DNA from: Myxococcus xanthus
GTDB lineage: Bacteria; Myxococcota; Myxococcia; Myxococcales; Myxococcaceae
DNA length: 64,000 bases
Direction: 5' to 3'
Assembly (NCBI RefSeq): GCF_006402735.1
Contig: NZ_CP017174.1
Span: 6,738,001 to 6,802,000 of the forward strand
Shown here: in pieces, positions 19,521 through 25,638 of the stretch
Position numbering within the stretch: position 1 is the stretch's first letter
Layout of the letters: each line of letters starts with the position of its first letter
Position numbers and translations under genes: made by a program
Notes under the pieces: model-generated
Seen by the model: only the letters and a program-made list of their open reading frames with translations
Database searches by the model: none
What the model was told of the DNA's origin: nothing

Positions 19521-20075
19521 ATGACCCCGCCCGTCCCGAGCCTGACCGACACCACCCTCGTCGCCGACCTGAACGCCCGGCTCCGGGACGTGCCGGACTT
19601 CCCCAAGCCCGGCATCGTCTTCAAGGACATCACCCCCGTGCTGGCGGACCCGCGCCTGTTCGGCCGCGTCGTCAACGCCATGTCGGCGCCCTTCCGGGGA
19701 CAGCACGTCACGAAGGTGGTGGGCGTGGAGGCCCGAGGCTTCCTGCTGGGCGCGCCCATCGCGCTCGCCCTCAACGCGGGCTTCGTACCCGCGCGCAAGC
19801 CAGGGAAGCTGCCGCACCGCTCGGTGGTGGAGCGCTATTCCCTGGAGTACGGCTCCGACGGCGTGGAGATGCACGAGGACGCCATCCTCCAGGGGGAGCG
19901 GGTGCTCGTCGTGGATGACGTGCTGGCCACGGGAGGCACGGCGGAGGCCACCGCGAAGCTGGTGTCCCGGCTCGGCGGCGAGCTGGTGGGCTTCAGCTTC
20001 CTCCTCAGCCTGGACTTCCTCGAAGGCCCCAACCGCCTCGGGCGCGAGCGCGTGACGACGCTGCTGTCTTTCTGA
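19521..20075 (+). CDS. apt: Adenine phosphoribosyltransferase
   Basis: 184 residues from ATG 19521, preceded by GGAG at eight bases; the frame extends upstream but this start fits the family length. Converts adenine and PRPP to AMP (purine salvage, cytoplasm). Diagnostic segments: LRDVPDFPKPGIVFKDITPVLADP at residues 18-41, VVGVEARGFLLGAPIALAL, RKPGKLPHRSVVERYSLEYG and the PRPP-binding loop VLVVDDVLATGGTAEA. Confidence 0.97.
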   Translation: MTPPVPSLTDTTLVADLNARLRDVPDFPKPGIVFKDITPVLADPRLFGRVVNAMSAPFRGQHVTKVVGVEARGFLLGAPIALALNAGFVPARKPGKLPHRSVVERYSLEYGSDGVEMHEDAILQGERVLVVDDVLATGGTAEATAKLVSRLGGELVGFSFLLSLDFLEGPNRLGRERVTTLLSF

Positions 20076-20138: not shown

Positions 20139-20294
20139 CTACGGCACGCCCACGGGGATGAGCGGCGAGCAACCGAGGTGCGCCGGCATGCAGTCCGAGC
20201 GGCTCGGGCCCGGGCAGCACACCTGCGAGCCCGCACATGTCAGGCTCGCCGAGCACTTCGGACGGCAGGGAGGCACGTACGACTTCAGTTGCAT
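20139..20294 (-). CDS. Small cysteine-rich peptide, knottin-like cysteine spacing
   Basis: 51 residues beginning MQLKSYVPPCRPKC. GGAG lies eight bases before the ATG, which supports real translation. Seven cysteines (10, 14, 20, 26, 27, 35, 42) make up 14 percent of the chain. The last six follow C-x5-C-x5-CC-x7-C-x6-C, the order seen in inhibitor-cystine-knot peptides. There is no signal peptide or membrane segment. It sits alone, antisense to its neighbours, between apt and the HOD-like gene. I do not know a family; toxin, metal-binding or regulatory roles are all open. Existence of the gene is likely, function unknown. Confidence 0.6.
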   Translation of the reverse strand: MQLKSYVPPCRPKCSASLTCAGSQVCCPGPSRSDCMPAHLGCSPLIPVGVP

Positions 20295-20480
20295 GTGAAC
20301 GTCTCCTGCCGGGGTCATCCCGGGAAAGCAGGAACAGGATACTGCGCGAAACATGAATTGATTGAGCCAGCGGCCCTCCGTCCGGCCGGAACGGCCCCTG
20401 CCGTGTTGCCTGCTGACATGCGGGCCGGGCCTGCGCACCCTCCGACGAGAACCAACCAATGCTTCCACGGAGGGGACGAC

Positions 20481-21311
20481 ATGCCGGAAGTACACACCCG
20501 CGGCGGCGCCCGCATCCGCTACGACGACGTGGGCCAGGGCGAGCCCGCGCTTCTCTTCATCCCAGGGTGGTGCACCACCCGAGCGAGCTTCCAGAAGCTG
20601 CTTCCCCGCTGCTCCGCCTTCCGCCGTGTCCTGTCCGTGGACATCCGGGGGCACGGCGAGTCCGAAGGTGGCGGCACCGACTTCGACAGCACCACGGTGC
20701 TGGAGGACCTGCTCGCGGTCGTGGAGACCAGCGGCGCGCGGCACATCGTCCCCGTGGCAATGTCCCACGCGGGCTGGTGGGGGCTCGACCTGCGACGGGC
20801 GTTGGGCCCCGCGCGTGTGCCGCGGATGGTGCTGCTGGACTGGATTGCCACCGAGCCCACCCCGGCCTTCCTCCGCGCCGTGCGCGGGCTCCAGACGGAG
20901 CGCTGGAGCGAGGTGCGAGACGGCTTGCTCCAGGGCTGGCTGGAGGGGCTCGACGACGACGCCATCCGCCGCTTCGTGCGCGACGACATGGGCGCGTTCG
21001 ACGAAGCCATGTGGGCCCGGGCCGGGCGGGAGATTGAAGCGGCCTACGCCCGCGAGGGCTCTCCGCTGCGAGCGCTCGCGGCGCTGGAGCCGATGCCGCT
21101 CACGATGCACCTGTACGCGCGGCCAGAGTCACACGACTACCTGGCGGCGCAGGTGGACTTCGGCGCGGAGCATCCGGGCTTTCACGTGCTGAAGCTCCCC
21201 GCCACCAGCCACTTCCCGGTGCTGGAGGTGCCAGCGATGGTGGCCGCGGGCATCGAGGCGCTCGTCTCCGCGCGAGAGGTCCCCATCCACGCCAGCGCCG
21301 TTCCAGCCTGA
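20481..21311 (+). CDS. Alpha/beta-hydrolase of the HOD type (cofactor-free quinolone 2,4-dioxygenase-like)
   Basis: 276 residues; GGAGGGG five bases before the ATG. It resembles Arthrobacter HOD along most of its length: LLFIPGWCTTRASFQKLL, VDIRGHGES, the nucleophile elbow AMSHAGWW, MVLLDWIA, RWSEVRDGLLQGWLEG and SHFPVLEVP. Ser95, Asp120 and His244 align with the HOD triad Ser101/Asp126/His251 at nearly constant offset. HOD-type enzymes open 3-hydroxy-4-quinolones with oxygen and no cofactor, releasing CO; relatives degrade the Pseudomonas signal PQS. The alignment is from memory. A plain esterase is less likely because the elbow is S-H-A-G rather than G-x-S-x-G. Confidence 0.7.
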   Translation: MPEVHTRGGARIRYDDVGQGEPALLFIPGWCTTRASFQKLLPRCSAFRRVLSVDIRGHGESEGGGTDFDSTTVLEDLLAVVETSGARHIVPVAMSHAGWWGLDLRRALGPARVPRMVLLDWIATEPTPAFLRAVRGLQTERWSEVRDGLLQGWLEGLDDDAIRRFVRDDMGAFDEAMWARAGREIEAAYAREGSPLRALAALEPMPLTMHLYARPESHDYLAAQVDFGAEHPGFHVLKLPATSHFPVLEVPAMVAAGIEALVSAREVPIHASAVPA

Positions 21312-22581: not shown

Positions 22582-23190
22582 ATGCCCCGTCCATCCAACA
22601 CCGAGGAGCGCCGTCAGCAGATTGTCGCGGGCCTGCTGAAGGTCATGTCGGAGCGCGGTTACGAGCGCGCCTCCGTGGGCGAAATCGCGAAGGCGGCGGG
22701 GTTGAGCCCGGGGCTGGTGCACTACCACTTCAGCGGCAAGCAGGAGATTCTCCTCTCGCTGGTGGAGCAGTTGGCGGCGCAGGCGCGGCAGCGGGTGGCG
22801 ACGCGGCTGGAACGGGTGAAGGGCCCGGACGCCCGAGCCCGCGTCGATGCCTTCGTTGAGGCCTTCCTCGCCACGGGCGACGACGCGGCCCCGGCGGCCG
22901 TCGCGAGCTGGGTCACCATCAGCGCGGAGGCCATCCGGCAGCCCGAGGTTCGGGCCATCTACGAGCAGGTGGTGCGCGCCGACCTGGAGCACCTGACGTC
23001 ACTCGTCGCCGCCGTGGTGGGACGGCGCAAGGCGCCCGCGCTGGCAGCCGGGCTGTTCGCCGCCGTGCAGGGCTACTTCGTGCTCGCCGCCAGCGTCCCG
23101 GGCCTGGTCCCCGCGGGCTCCGCCGCCAGCACGGTGAAGCGCATGGCCGCGGGGCTGATGGACTCGGCCGGCGCGAAGGAGGACGCATGA
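22582..23190 (+). CDS. TetR-family transcriptional repressor
   Basis: 202 residues. The N-terminal helix-turn-helix is TEERRQQIVAGLLKVMSERGYERASVGEIAKAAGLSPGLVHYHFSGKQEILLSL (residues 7-60), a BetI-like variant of the TetR signature. The C-terminal all-helical domain should bind a small ligand. It is preceded by a promoter whose -10 is embedded in a palindrome, so autoregulation is probable. The stop overlaps the transporter start (ATGA), so it probably controls the transporter and the genes behind it. Confidence 0.93.
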   Translation: MPRPSNTEERRQQIVAGLLKVMSERGYERASVGEIAKAAGLSPGLVHYHFSGKQEILLSLVEQLAAQARQRVATRLERVKGPDARARVDAFVEAFLATGDDAAPAAVASWVTISAEAIRQPEVRAIYEQVVRADLEHLTSLVAAVVGRRKAPALAAGLFAAVQGYFVLAASVPGLVPAGSAASTVKRMAAGLMDSAGAKEDA

Positions 23191-24398
23191 AGACGGCCAC
23201 GAAGCTGGGGCTGCTCTCCAGCCTCTACCTGTCGCAGGGGCTGCCCTTCGGTTTCTTCACCCAGGCCCTGCCCGTGCTGCTGCGCCACCAGGGCCTGTCG
23301 TTGCCCTCCATCGGCCTGGCGCACCTGCTGGCGCTGCCCTGGGCGCTCAAGTTCCTCTGGGCCCCGACCATGGACCGGCACGGTTCGGCGAGGTGGGGCC
23401 GGCGGCGTGGCTACATCCTGCCGCTGCAGTTCCTGTCGTCGGGGATCCTGCTCGCGCTCGCGCTCCCCGAGGGAGGCCTGGACATGCGGCTGCTGATGGC
23501 CGCGGTGCTGGGCATCAACCTCCTGGCAGCCACGCAGGACGTGGCCACCGACGGGTTGGCGGTGGAGCTGCTCGCGCCAGCCGAGCGCGGCTGGGGCAAC
23601 GGCGTCCAGGTGGCGGCCTACCGCGTCGGGATGATTCTGGGCGGCGGCGTGATGCTCGCCGTCTTCGACGCGGTGGGCTGGCGCCCCACGTTCCTCGCGC
23701 TGGGCGCACTGCTGCTCCTGGCCACCGTGCCCATTGCCCTCTTCCGCGAGCCCCCCACCGAGCCGCCGCCCGCGCAGAGCCTGGGCCTGCGGTGGTGGCT
23801 GAAGCGGCCGGGGGCCGGCGCGTGGCTCACGCTGCTCGTCGTCTACAAGGCGGGTGAAGCCCTGGCCACCGGGATGCTGCGCACCTTCCTGGTCGACGCA
23901 GGCCTGTCGCTGACAGCCATCGGCTGGATGTTGGGCGGCGTGGGCTTCACCGCGGGACTCGTGGGCGCGCTGCTGGGCGGCGGCCTGGTGGTGCGGCTCG
24001 GACGACGACGTGCGCTGCTCGTCTTTGGAGGCATCCAGGCCGGAGCGGTGCTGCTCTACGCCCTGGCGGCCCAAGGCCCTACGTCCCTGCCCCTGCTCAC
24101 CCTCGTCTGCGGCGTCGAGCACGTCGCCAGCGGCATGGCCACCGCGGCCGTCTTCACCGCGATGATGGACGCATGCCGGCCGGACCACGCCGCCACGGAC
24201 TACACCGTGCAGGCATCCTTGGTGGTGCTGGCCACGGGCGCCGCCGCCGCGCTGAGTGGCTTCAGCGCCCAGGCCCTTGGCTACGCCGGCCACTTCATAC
24301 TGGCCGCGTTCCTGTGCGCGGCGGGCACGCTGTACGCCGCCCTCACCTTCCACCCGCCCCGGAGCCTGGCCTCCGCGGCCGCTCCCGAGGTGTCGTAA
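23187..24398 (+). CDS. AmpG-like MFS transporter
   Basis: 403 residues with about 12 membrane helices. The N-terminus SLYLSQGLPFGFFTQALPVLLRHQGLSLPSIG and the segment ATQDVATDGLAVELLAPAERGWGNGVQ are typical of the AmpG/acetyl-CoA-transporter branch of the major facilitator family. AmpG imports anhydro-muropeptides for peptidoglycan recycling; whether this copy does so is not shown by sequence. Overlaps tetR by four bases and coaD by one (TAATG). TetR control next door suggests induction by the transported or a toxic compound. Confidence 0.8.
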   Translation: MKTATKLGLLSSLYLSQGLPFGFFTQALPVLLRHQGLSLPSIGLAHLLALPWALKFLWAPTMDRHGSARWGRRRGYILPLQFLSSGILLALALPEGGLDMRLLMAAVLGINLLAATQDVATDGLAVELLAPAERGWGNGVQVAAYRVGMILGGGVMLAVFDAVGWRPTFLALGALLLLATVPIALFREPPTEPPPAQSLGLRWWLKRPGAGAWLTLLVVYKAGEALATGMLRTFLVDAGLSLTAIGWMLGGVGFTAGLVGALLGGGLVVRLGRRRALLVFGGIQAGAVLLYALAAQGPTSLPLLTLVCGVEHVASGMATAAVFTAMMDACRPDHAATDYTVQASLVVLATGAAAALSGFSAQALGYAGHFILAAFLCAAGTLYAALTFHPPRSLASAAAPEVS

Positions 24399-24895
24399 TG
24401 ACCATCGCCGTCTACGCCGGCAGCTTCGACCCCGTTACCGCCGGCCACATGTCCGTCGTCCGGCAGGCGGCGCGCCTCTTCGGCCACGTCGTCGTGGTGG
24501 TGGCCGTCAACCCGGACAAGGAGAGCCTGCTGTCCGCCGATGAACGCGTGGCCCTCCTCCGTGAAGCCGTGGCGCACCACCCCAACGTCACCGTGGCCCG
24601 CACGCAGGGGCTCATCGTCGACTTCGCGCGGGACATTGGCGCCAGCGTCCTGCTGCGCGGCGTGCGTGGTGCCACGGATGCCCAGTTCGAGACGACGCTG
24701 GCGCAGAACAACCGCGCGCTGGCGCCCGAGCTGTCCACCCTCTTCCTTCCAGCCGAAGCCCACCTGGCCGAGGTGAGCAGCAGCGGACTCAAGGCGCGCG
24801 TGGCGCGCGGAGAGGACGTTTCCGCCTTCTGTCCACCGGCCGTCGCGGCGAAGCTTCGGGAGCGACTCGACCCTTCCCTCCGGAGCCTGCCTTGA
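24398..24895 (+). CDS. coaD: Phosphopantetheine adenylyltransferase
   Basis: 165 residues from ATG 24398, which overlaps the transporter stop. Adds AMP to 4'-phosphopantetheine in coenzyme A synthesis. The nucleotidyltransferase motif AVYAGSFDPVTAGHMSVVRQA is at the N-terminus, with VLLRGVRGATDAQFE and AHLAEVSSSGLKARVARGEDVSAF later; length and order match the family. An essential enzyme placed inside a TetR-type operon by overlapping genes is a noteworthy arrangement; it may also have its own promoter within the transporter gene. Confidence 0.96.
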   Translation: MTIAVYAGSFDPVTAGHMSVVRQAARLFGHVVVVVAVNPDKESLLSADERVALLREAVAHHPNVTVARTQGLIVDFARDIGASVLLRGVRGATDAQFETTLAQNNRALAPELSTLFLPAEAHLAEVSSSGLKARVARGEDVSAFCPPAVAAKLRERLDPSLRSLP

Positions 24896-25638
24896 GCCTG
24901 TCCTTCATCACCCTTGGCATCGGCGACGCCTTCTCCGCCCTGCGCTATTCGTCCTGCTTCGCCGTGGAGGCGGAGGACCAGGTCCTGCTGGTGGACTGCC
25001 CGCACCCCATCCGGAAGATGATGCGCGAGGCGTCCGAGTCCTCCGGCGTGCCCCTGGACGCGGACCGCGTCAGCGCCGTGGCCCTCACCCACCTGCACGC
25101 GGACCACGCGTCGGGCCTGGAGAGCCTGGGCTACTTCTCCTTCTTCGTGCTGCAGCGGAAGCTGGAGGTGCTGGCCCACCCCGCTGTCGCGGACCGGCTG
25201 TGGGAAGGCAACCTGGCCGCGGGCATGGAGTGCCTCATCGAGCGGCGCGGGGAGCCCCCCAACGACAAGCACTTCGAGGACTACTTCGACCACACGCCGC
25301 TCTCCACGGAGACCGCCGTGCGGCATGGGCCCTTCCTCATCGAGAGCCGGATGACGTACCACCACGTGCCCACCACCGCGCTGCGCATCCACGCGGGGGG
25401 CCGCTGCCTGGGGTACAGCGCGGACACCGCCTTCGACGAGGGCCTCATCGACTGGCTCTCCACGGCGGACCTCATCATCCACGAGACGAACTACGGCGTG
25501 CACACGCCCTACGAGAAGCTGGCGGCGCTGCCCGCCGAGCTGCGCGCCCGGATGCGGCTCATCCACTACCCGGATGACTTCGACACCAGCGCGAGCGTCA
25601 TTGAGCCGCTCGCGCAGGGCCGGCGCTACAACGTCTGA
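24892..25638 (+). CDS. Metallo-beta-lactamase-fold hydrolase (RNase Z-like subgroup)
   Basis: 248 residues. The zinc motif is THLHADHASGLE near residue 62; ESRMTYHHVPTTALRI, LGYSADTAFDEGL and IIHETNYGVHTPYEKL supply the remaining ligands. The last two resemble the RNase Z / phosphonate-phosphodiesterase branch, where a displayed Asp and His bind the second metal. The start is TTG overlapping the coaD stop (TTGA), with GGAG six bases upstream. Substrate unknown. Last gene of the tetR operon. Confidence 0.82.
   Translation: MSLSFITLGIGDAFSALRYSSCFAVEAEDQVLLVDCPHPIRKMMREASESSGVPLDADRVSAVALTHLHADHASGLESLGYFSFFVLQRKLEVLAHPAVADRLWEGNLAAGMECLIERRGEPPNDKHFEDYFDHTPLSTETAVRHGPFLIESRMTYHHVPTTALRIHAGGRCLGYSADTAFDEGLIDWLSTADLIIHETNYGVHTPYEKLAALPAELRARMRLIHYPDDFDTSASVIEPLAQGRRYNV

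Follow-up and report, generated by a model that had tools for sequence, protein, structure and literature searches.

The window analysed here is a 64,000-nucleotide stretch of the Myxococcus xanthus contig NZ_CP017174.1 (positions 6,738,001 to 6,802,000), and its genome is assembled as a single contig of 9.32 Mb. At 20481–21311 of the window, on the forward strand, lies an intact reading frame of 276 codons and a stop, which begins with ATG. The gene, the sites discussed below and the neighbouring genes are as follows, in window positions.

19521–20075, forward strand: phosphoribosyltransferase-domain gene, the upstream neighbour (Pfam Pribosyltran, synteny)
20469–20475, forward strand: Shine-Dalgarno-like GGAGGGG ahead of the ATG (sequence)
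20481–21311, forward strand: coding sequence for a 276-aa HOD-like protein of the alpha/beta-hydrolase fold, clade A (reading frame, alignment, tree, model)
20568–20582, forward strand: W30-C-T-T-R34, with W30 equivalent to HOD W36 and R34 to HOD H40 (alignment)
20763–20777, forward strand: nucleophilic elbow S95-H96-A97-G98-W99, HOD S101-H102-G103-G104-W105 (alignment)
20838–20840, forward strand: D120, acid of the His-Asp dyad, HOD D126, directly following a beta strand in the model (alignment, model)
21210–21233, forward strand: H244-F-P-x4-P251, the catalytic His (HOD H251) within HFP-x(4)-P (alignment)
22582–23190, forward strand: downstream TetR-family regulator, BetI-like, 76–98% identical in relatives (synteny)
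23187–24398, forward strand: MFS transporter similar to RhtX/FptX and AmpG, with a 4-base overlap with the TetR gene (matches)

We read the upstream neighbour as the adenine phosphoribosyltransferase gene apt, which is about 79–98% identical and syntenic across Myxococcus, Corallococcus, Pyxidicoccus and Citreicoccus. The TetR gene is syntenic in the same four genera, and these two are the only neighbours shown to be so; neither was found beside the Archangium copies that were examined. One convergent gene, to which no function was assigned, lies between the gene under study and the TetR gene. Two further features of the locus are recorded here in their own right. A small Cys-rich reading frame of about 51 aa (MQLKSYVPPCRPKCSASLTCAGSQVCCPG...) lies upstream of and divergent from the gene at 20139–20294 on the reverse strand; it is 58–74% identical in several congeners and weakly matches the WAP four-disulfide-core family (Pfam PF00095, 20.1 bits against a cut-off of 20.8), a domain typical of animals. 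At 24892–25638 on the forward strand is encoded a metallo-beta-lactamase-fold protein similar to RNase Z, with a match to the anti-Pycsar nuclease Apyc1 just below the cut-off (46.5 vs 50 bits).

The gene was found in all 27 genomes of the genus Myxococcus that were searched, the window's own included. With dN/dS values of 0.09–0.32 against its congeners the encoded protein is subject to purifying selection, and the reading frame is a real gene and not a chance frame. The closest named relatives, from Myxococcus sp. CA023, M. xanthus AM003 and M. vastator, are 94–96% identical. A Myxococcus-type copy (91% identity, same apt and TetR neighbours) is also present in a record titled 'Comamonas sp. 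KCTC 72670' (BNCN01000001.1), which is probably a mislabelled Myxococcus genome. Inspection revealed no signal peptide, and the protein would therefore act inside the cell.

The first-pass annotation had assigned the protein to the HOD family, and this assignment was confirmed. A phmmer search of PDB sequences returned AqdC (E = 1.4e-47), HOD (3e-47) and QDO (9.3e-47), with the next non-HOD structure at 3.6e-11. The window protein is 36% identical to AqdC, 35% to QDO and 34% to HOD, which are 33–41% identical to one another; that it is HOD-like is beyond doubt. The proposed HOD-type residues were likewise borne out by alignment with the three enzymes, in which Ser95, Asp120 and His244 correspond to Ser101, Asp126 and His251 of HOD and to Ser95, Asp120 and His244 of QDO. 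Of the HOD ligand contacts (residue list from PMC10548524), the window protein shares W36, C37, S101, H102, F136, L143, L156, W160, M177, W185, G189, I192 and F252, and five are altered, namely H38 to Thr32, H100 to Met94, G103 to Ala97, L140 to Val and S188 to Ala. In addition, HOD H40 is replaced by R34. In HOD the backbone of W36 binds the substrate NH and O2, the His-Asp pair suffices for catalysis and Ser101 modulates O2 and water, and in AqdC the elbow nucleophile is naturally an Ala (PMC10548524).

Pfam gave the window protein generic matches only (Abhydrolase_6, Abhydrolase_1), and NCBIfam gave weak matches to PcaD-type enol-lactonases, which the proven HOD and AqdC give as well. We saw no HQD-specific model in NCBIfam, where HOD and AqdC2 match generic hydrolases only, so a missing HQD annotation is uninformative. 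Wullich et al. reportedly defined the HQD (3-hydroxy-4(1H)-quinolone 2,4-dioxygenase) subfamily in 2020 by sequence motifs, among them an elbow motif, H-x(2)-W, and a motif that contains the catalytic His, HFP-x(4)-P. Members are also said to combine an alpha/beta-hydrolase core with a helical cap, to conserve hydrophobic contacts in the substrate cavity, and to have a triad acid that ends beta strand 6 and forms the base with His as a His-Asp pair. The window protein carries both motifs in this reported form, as H96-A-G-W99 and H244-F-P-x4-P251. Both occur together in 17/17 HQD-clade proteins, in 56 of the 90 clade A proteins (the group that holds the window protein, see below), and in none of nine enterobacterial and three outgroup proteins. 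The hydrophobic cavity is kept at W30, F130, L137, L149, W153, M170, W178, I185 and F245, with the positions of HOD H38, H100 and G103 changed.

An AlphaFold2 model of the window protein, built from a 51-sequence alignment, had a mean pLDDT of 94.0 and a pTM of 0.91. It predicts an alpha/beta-hydrolase core with a cap formed by helices 128–136, 142–154, 160–172 and 175–192; D120 follows strand 115–119, and H244 is present as its dyad partner. Foldseek searches with the model placed only HQD structures at the top (AqdC, E = 4.8e-28), the first non-HQD structure following at 1.8e-15. VIA-align superposed the model on AqdC with Z 38.8 at 1.5 Å, on QDO with Z 37.2 at 1.6 Å and on HOD with Z 37.3 at 1.8 Å, and the best non-HQD structure reached Z 27.0 at 2.9 Å. 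Since the structural alignments run from residue 1 to 263–267, the cap matches as well as the core.

Despite this likeness, our phylogenetic analysis places the window protein outside the clade of HOD, AqdC and QDO, in a separate sister clade that we call clade A. In a first tree, for which generic hydrolases from the same genome served as the outgroup, the three proven enzymes and 16 relatives formed one clade (support 100/99), which an enterobacterial group (Pantoea, Rahnella, Erwinia) joined at 97/87. The window protein fell outside it in a third group of 64 rows (84/37), with a core of 63 rows supported at 91/92. The first-pass annotation had named a grouping with esterases as the outcome that would speak against it; the protein instead groups with the HOD-like family. 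In a second tree, from which the long outgroups were dropped and in which full-length HOD was used, the branch separating the HQD and enterobacterial rows from clade A received 100/94. Path lengths from the window protein were 1.1–1.6 to most of the clade A members listed, 2.4 to a heterocystous cyanobacterial member and 3.1–3.4 to HOD, AqdC and QDO. Profiles of the two clades, both built without myxobacteria, scored the window protein at 343 bits for clade A vs 243 bits for HQD. The separation is thus well supported, yet it is not beyond dispute, because AU tests that forced the myxobacteria together with the HQD clade gave p = 0.07, or 0.14 with the enterobacterial rows, and so did not formally reject that arrangement. 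The trees, which do not include the PQS-cleaving enzyme of Streptomyces bingchenggensis, also leave the placement of the root between clade A and the HQDs uncertain.

The two clades also differ at individual residues. Arg34 of the window protein is Arg in 83/90 clade A proteins and His, Leu, Asp or Glu in the HQD clade, while A97 and A241 correspond to Gly in 19/19 HQDs, A198 to Arg in 18/19 and S243 to Thr in 18/19. Arg34, SHAGW and SHFP together form the signature of clade A. This bears on the five motifs that had been described as shared with Arthrobacter HOD. PGWC is identical letter for letter, but SHAGW, LDW, GWLEG and SHFP read SHGGW, MDW, VWLDG and THFP in HOD; SHAGW and SHFP are marks of clade A rather than of HOD, because the A97 and S243 positions separate the clades.

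HOD W36, W160 and W185 are each missing from at most one of 118 aligned family proteins, and H102, I192 and H251 are present in nearly all of them. The nucleophilic Ser is far more variable, being replaced by Ala in 28/49 non-myxobacterial and 2/41 myxobacterial clade A proteins, and the tree requires no fewer than 15 Ser/Ala changes; the window protein itself retains Ser. HOD Asp126, which the window protein keeps, is Glu or Ser in 13 clade A relatives. In four Corallococcus-like sequences the elbow His (HOD H102) is Thr, and in two of them Ser is also Ala (CIATAGY); His244 and Asp120 are retained in all four, which have naturally lost the O2-contacting residue of HOD. Because of these 13 relatives and four Corallococcus-like sequences, the chemistry may vary between members of clade A. 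Seven sequences from heterocystous cyanobacteria, in which Asp126 is Glu, make up a fast-evolving subgroup, and most of their loci, read by eye, share VOC-like and MarR-like regulator genes. The nine sequences of the enterobacterial group, from plant-associated Enterobacterales, are a third HOD-like group, some of them on large Pantoea and Rahnella plasmids; they have Ala at the elbow and keep HxxW, and have lost HFP-x(4)-P (THLAVLERP).

The distribution of the family was surveyed by an alignment-based scan of 84,980 genomes with a 6-sequence alignment as query, which yielded 94 relatives, of which 80 were kept; an alignment of 13 diverse sequences contained no stretch conserved enough for such a scan. 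Clade A includes proteins from Myxococcus, Pyxidicoccus, Citreicoccus and Archangium; matches at E below 1e-20 within Myxococcota were confined to five genera, all in one family. Relatives outside the myxobacteria came from Candidatus Kryptonium, Acidobacteriota, Propionivibrio, Plasticicumulans, uncultured Deltaproteobacteria, Chloroflexota, cyanobacteria and Nocardioides, and, among archaea, from Nitrosocaldus, Calditenuaceae and HR01–HR04. They are mostly 42–56% identical to the window protein, against only 34–36% for HOD, AqdC and QDO. In a test of whether archaea carry the gene generally, it was present in no more than 4 of 200 genomes from the class of Nitrosocaldus. This patchy distribution points to horizontal transfer as the probable explanation. 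Four closely related sequences, from Candidatus Kryptonium, an unclassified bacterium, an Acidobacteriota MAG and bacterium HR33, look like a recent transfer between phyla.

Gene context separates the clades as well. In Rhodococcus and Mycobacteroides an AqdB/MeqD-type flavin monooxygenase, an AqdA-type carboxylesterase and a Meq-type amidase belong to the pathway from HHQ to anthranilate (PMC5332414). We searched for the three by tblastn on locus DNA, most loci spanning 8 kb on each side and some being short. Among the HQD-clade loci the monooxygenase was found in 12/17, one of these cases being a weak 27–28% match some 6 kb off, the carboxylesterase in 4 and the amidase in 6. None of the three was found in 60 clade A loci or in nine enterobacterial loci, although loci within one clade are not independent. 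Nor did the clade A neighbourhoods searched contain any partner gene recurring across phyla; on unannotated contigs the neighbouring genes were predicted with a greedy longest-ORF rule, on which the tblastn test does not depend. Elsewhere in the window's genome, the best AqdB-like protein, at 3.98 Mb, is 30% identical and matches HpxO-type enzymes better, and the best AqdA-like esterase, at 1.97 Mb, is 38% identical and matches generic lipase models only. Both are distant and unlinked, and neither counts as evidence for a pathway. MeqD-like proteins in six myxobacterial genomes are likewise only 27–32% identical.

Taken together, we lean towards reading the window protein as a cytoplasmic, cofactor-independent, HOD-like dioxygenase-like enzyme of a sister clade that acts physiologically on a compound other than PQS. 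If it works as HOD does, its substrate would be planar, aromatic or heteroaromatic, with an acidic OH, and would lie under the helical cap between F130, L137, L149, W153, M170, W178, I185 and F245. The His244-Asp120 dyad would take its proton, and O2, held in the former oxyanion hole at the amides of W30 and H96, would attack the carbanion-like substrate, so that the ring would be cleaved with neither metal nor flavin. Ser95 would merely tune the binding of substrate and O2. A complete Ser-His-Asp triad could also belong to an ordinary alpha/beta-hydrolase, such as an esterase, lactonase or enol-lactonase that resembles HOD by chance, and the generic Pfam and PcaD-type matches would agree with that. 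We consider this very improbable. In E-value the proven HQDs lead all other matches by about 36 orders of magnitude, the model fits HOD and AqdC at 1.5–1.9 Å vs about 2.8–3.4 Å for most of the esterases listed, and the replacement of the nucleophilic Ser by Ala in over half of the non-myxobacterial members argues against hydrolase activity and favours base-assisted oxygenation over ester hydrolysis.

The substrate is the point on which the remaining explanations divide. Because the window protein carries the reported HQD motifs, it may cleave some 3-hydroxyquinolone, and the fold, the dyad and the hydrophobic pocket are those of AqdC. The first-pass annotation had suggested that it could cleave PQS and disarm the signalling of prey; in this form the protein would be a genuine 3-hydroxy-4(1H)-quinolone 2,4-dioxygenase, and the predator would use it within its own cells to break down PQS or a related 2-alkyl-3-hydroxyquinolone from pseudomonad prey, either to detoxify the compound or to quench quorum sensing. 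Pseudomonads are indeed among the prey of myxobacteria, and oxidation of HHQ to PQS and HQNO is reported for Cystobacter ferrugineus (PMC9257966). In the same report M. xanthus yields no such products and its swarming is inhibited by HHQ, and the passages of that report considered here contain no account of PQS degradation by M. xanthus. Moreover, the protein lies outside the clade of proven enzymes, its pocket carries Thr, Arg, Met and Ala in place of H38, H40, H100 and G103 of HOD, and the HHQ 3-monooxygenase, carboxylesterase and amidase are missing from all 60 clade A loci. The best AqdB-like candidate of the genome is remote and more HpxO-like, and the closest non-myxobacterial relatives occur, for example, in thermophilic hot-spring archaea with no known link to PQS. 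We therefore consider the PQS explanation distinctly unlikely, and the proposed disarming of prey gained no positive support, although removal of imported PQS within the cell is conceivable; since PQS enzymes have a different pocket rim and other neighbouring genes, the physiological substrate is probably not PQS.

A further possibility is that the enzyme is an HQD with a different physiological substrate, namely another endogenous 3-hydroxy-4-oxo heteroaromatic, for instance from anthranilate/kynurenine metabolism or a quinolone made by the cell itself. All HQD catalytic elements are kept alongside a different pocket rim, and the gene is present in every genome of the genus searched and is under purifying selection, which would suit such a role. 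No biosynthetic or degradative genes adjoin it, however, apt and TetR being the only neighbours with demonstrated synteny, and we regard this explanation as rather unlikely, less so than PQS cleavage. Tentatively, clade A could consist of cofactor-free dioxygenases found across bacteria and archaea, thermophiles included, that act on something other than 3-hydroxyquinolones, with HOD, AqdC and QDO as a specialised branch recruited into quinoline and alkylquinolone catabolism, a reading to which we give somewhat less than even odds.

To our knowledge, few HOD-type enzymes have been studied, nearly all of them on quinolones, and we know of no function for any clade A protein. Clade A is a deep sister clade, spanning hot-spring archaea and all Myxococcus, in which the oxygenation machinery is kept and the quinolone pathway genes are absent, and its proteins are well placed for tracing the ancestral reaction and the path by which a hydrolase fold became an oxygenase. 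It also means that motif searches for PQS-quenching enzymes will gather proteins unrelated to PQS, given the share of clade A that passes the motifs as reported.

Among the proteins compared, the clade A members from Kryptonium, Propionivibrio, Nitrosocaldus, Calditenuaceae, Acidobacteriota, cyanobacteria and others share PGWC..R, [SA]H[AS]GW and SHFP with the window protein; many of them have Ala in place of the nucleophilic Ser that it retains. AqdC, the PQS 2,4-dioxygenase of Mycobacteroides abscessus (PDB 6RA2, 6RA3), is alike in fold, in the His-Asp dyad and in the equivalents of W36, H102, W160 and W185. It differs at the elbow, where it has Ala and HGGW against Ser and HAGW in the window protein, and at HOD positions 38 and 100, which are His in AqdC but Thr and Met in the window protein; it is encoded within the aqdRABC cluster (PMC5332414), a context that the window gene does not have. 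The window gene likewise differs from the QDO clade relatives, which have MeqD/AqdB-type monooxygenases nearby. HOD of Arthrobacter (HodC, MeqE; PDB 2WJ3) agrees with the window protein in all three triad residues and in most ligand contacts, and its gene lies on plasmid pAL1, flanked by genes for a FAD monooxygenase and an alpha/beta-hydrolase, the latter taken as an amidase. QDO, a 3-hydroxy-4-oxoquinoline 2,4-dioxygenase (PDB 3IBT), shares even the triad numbering with the window protein, whereas its Gln32, His34, SHGCW and THFP stand against Thr32, Arg34, SHAGW and SHFP.
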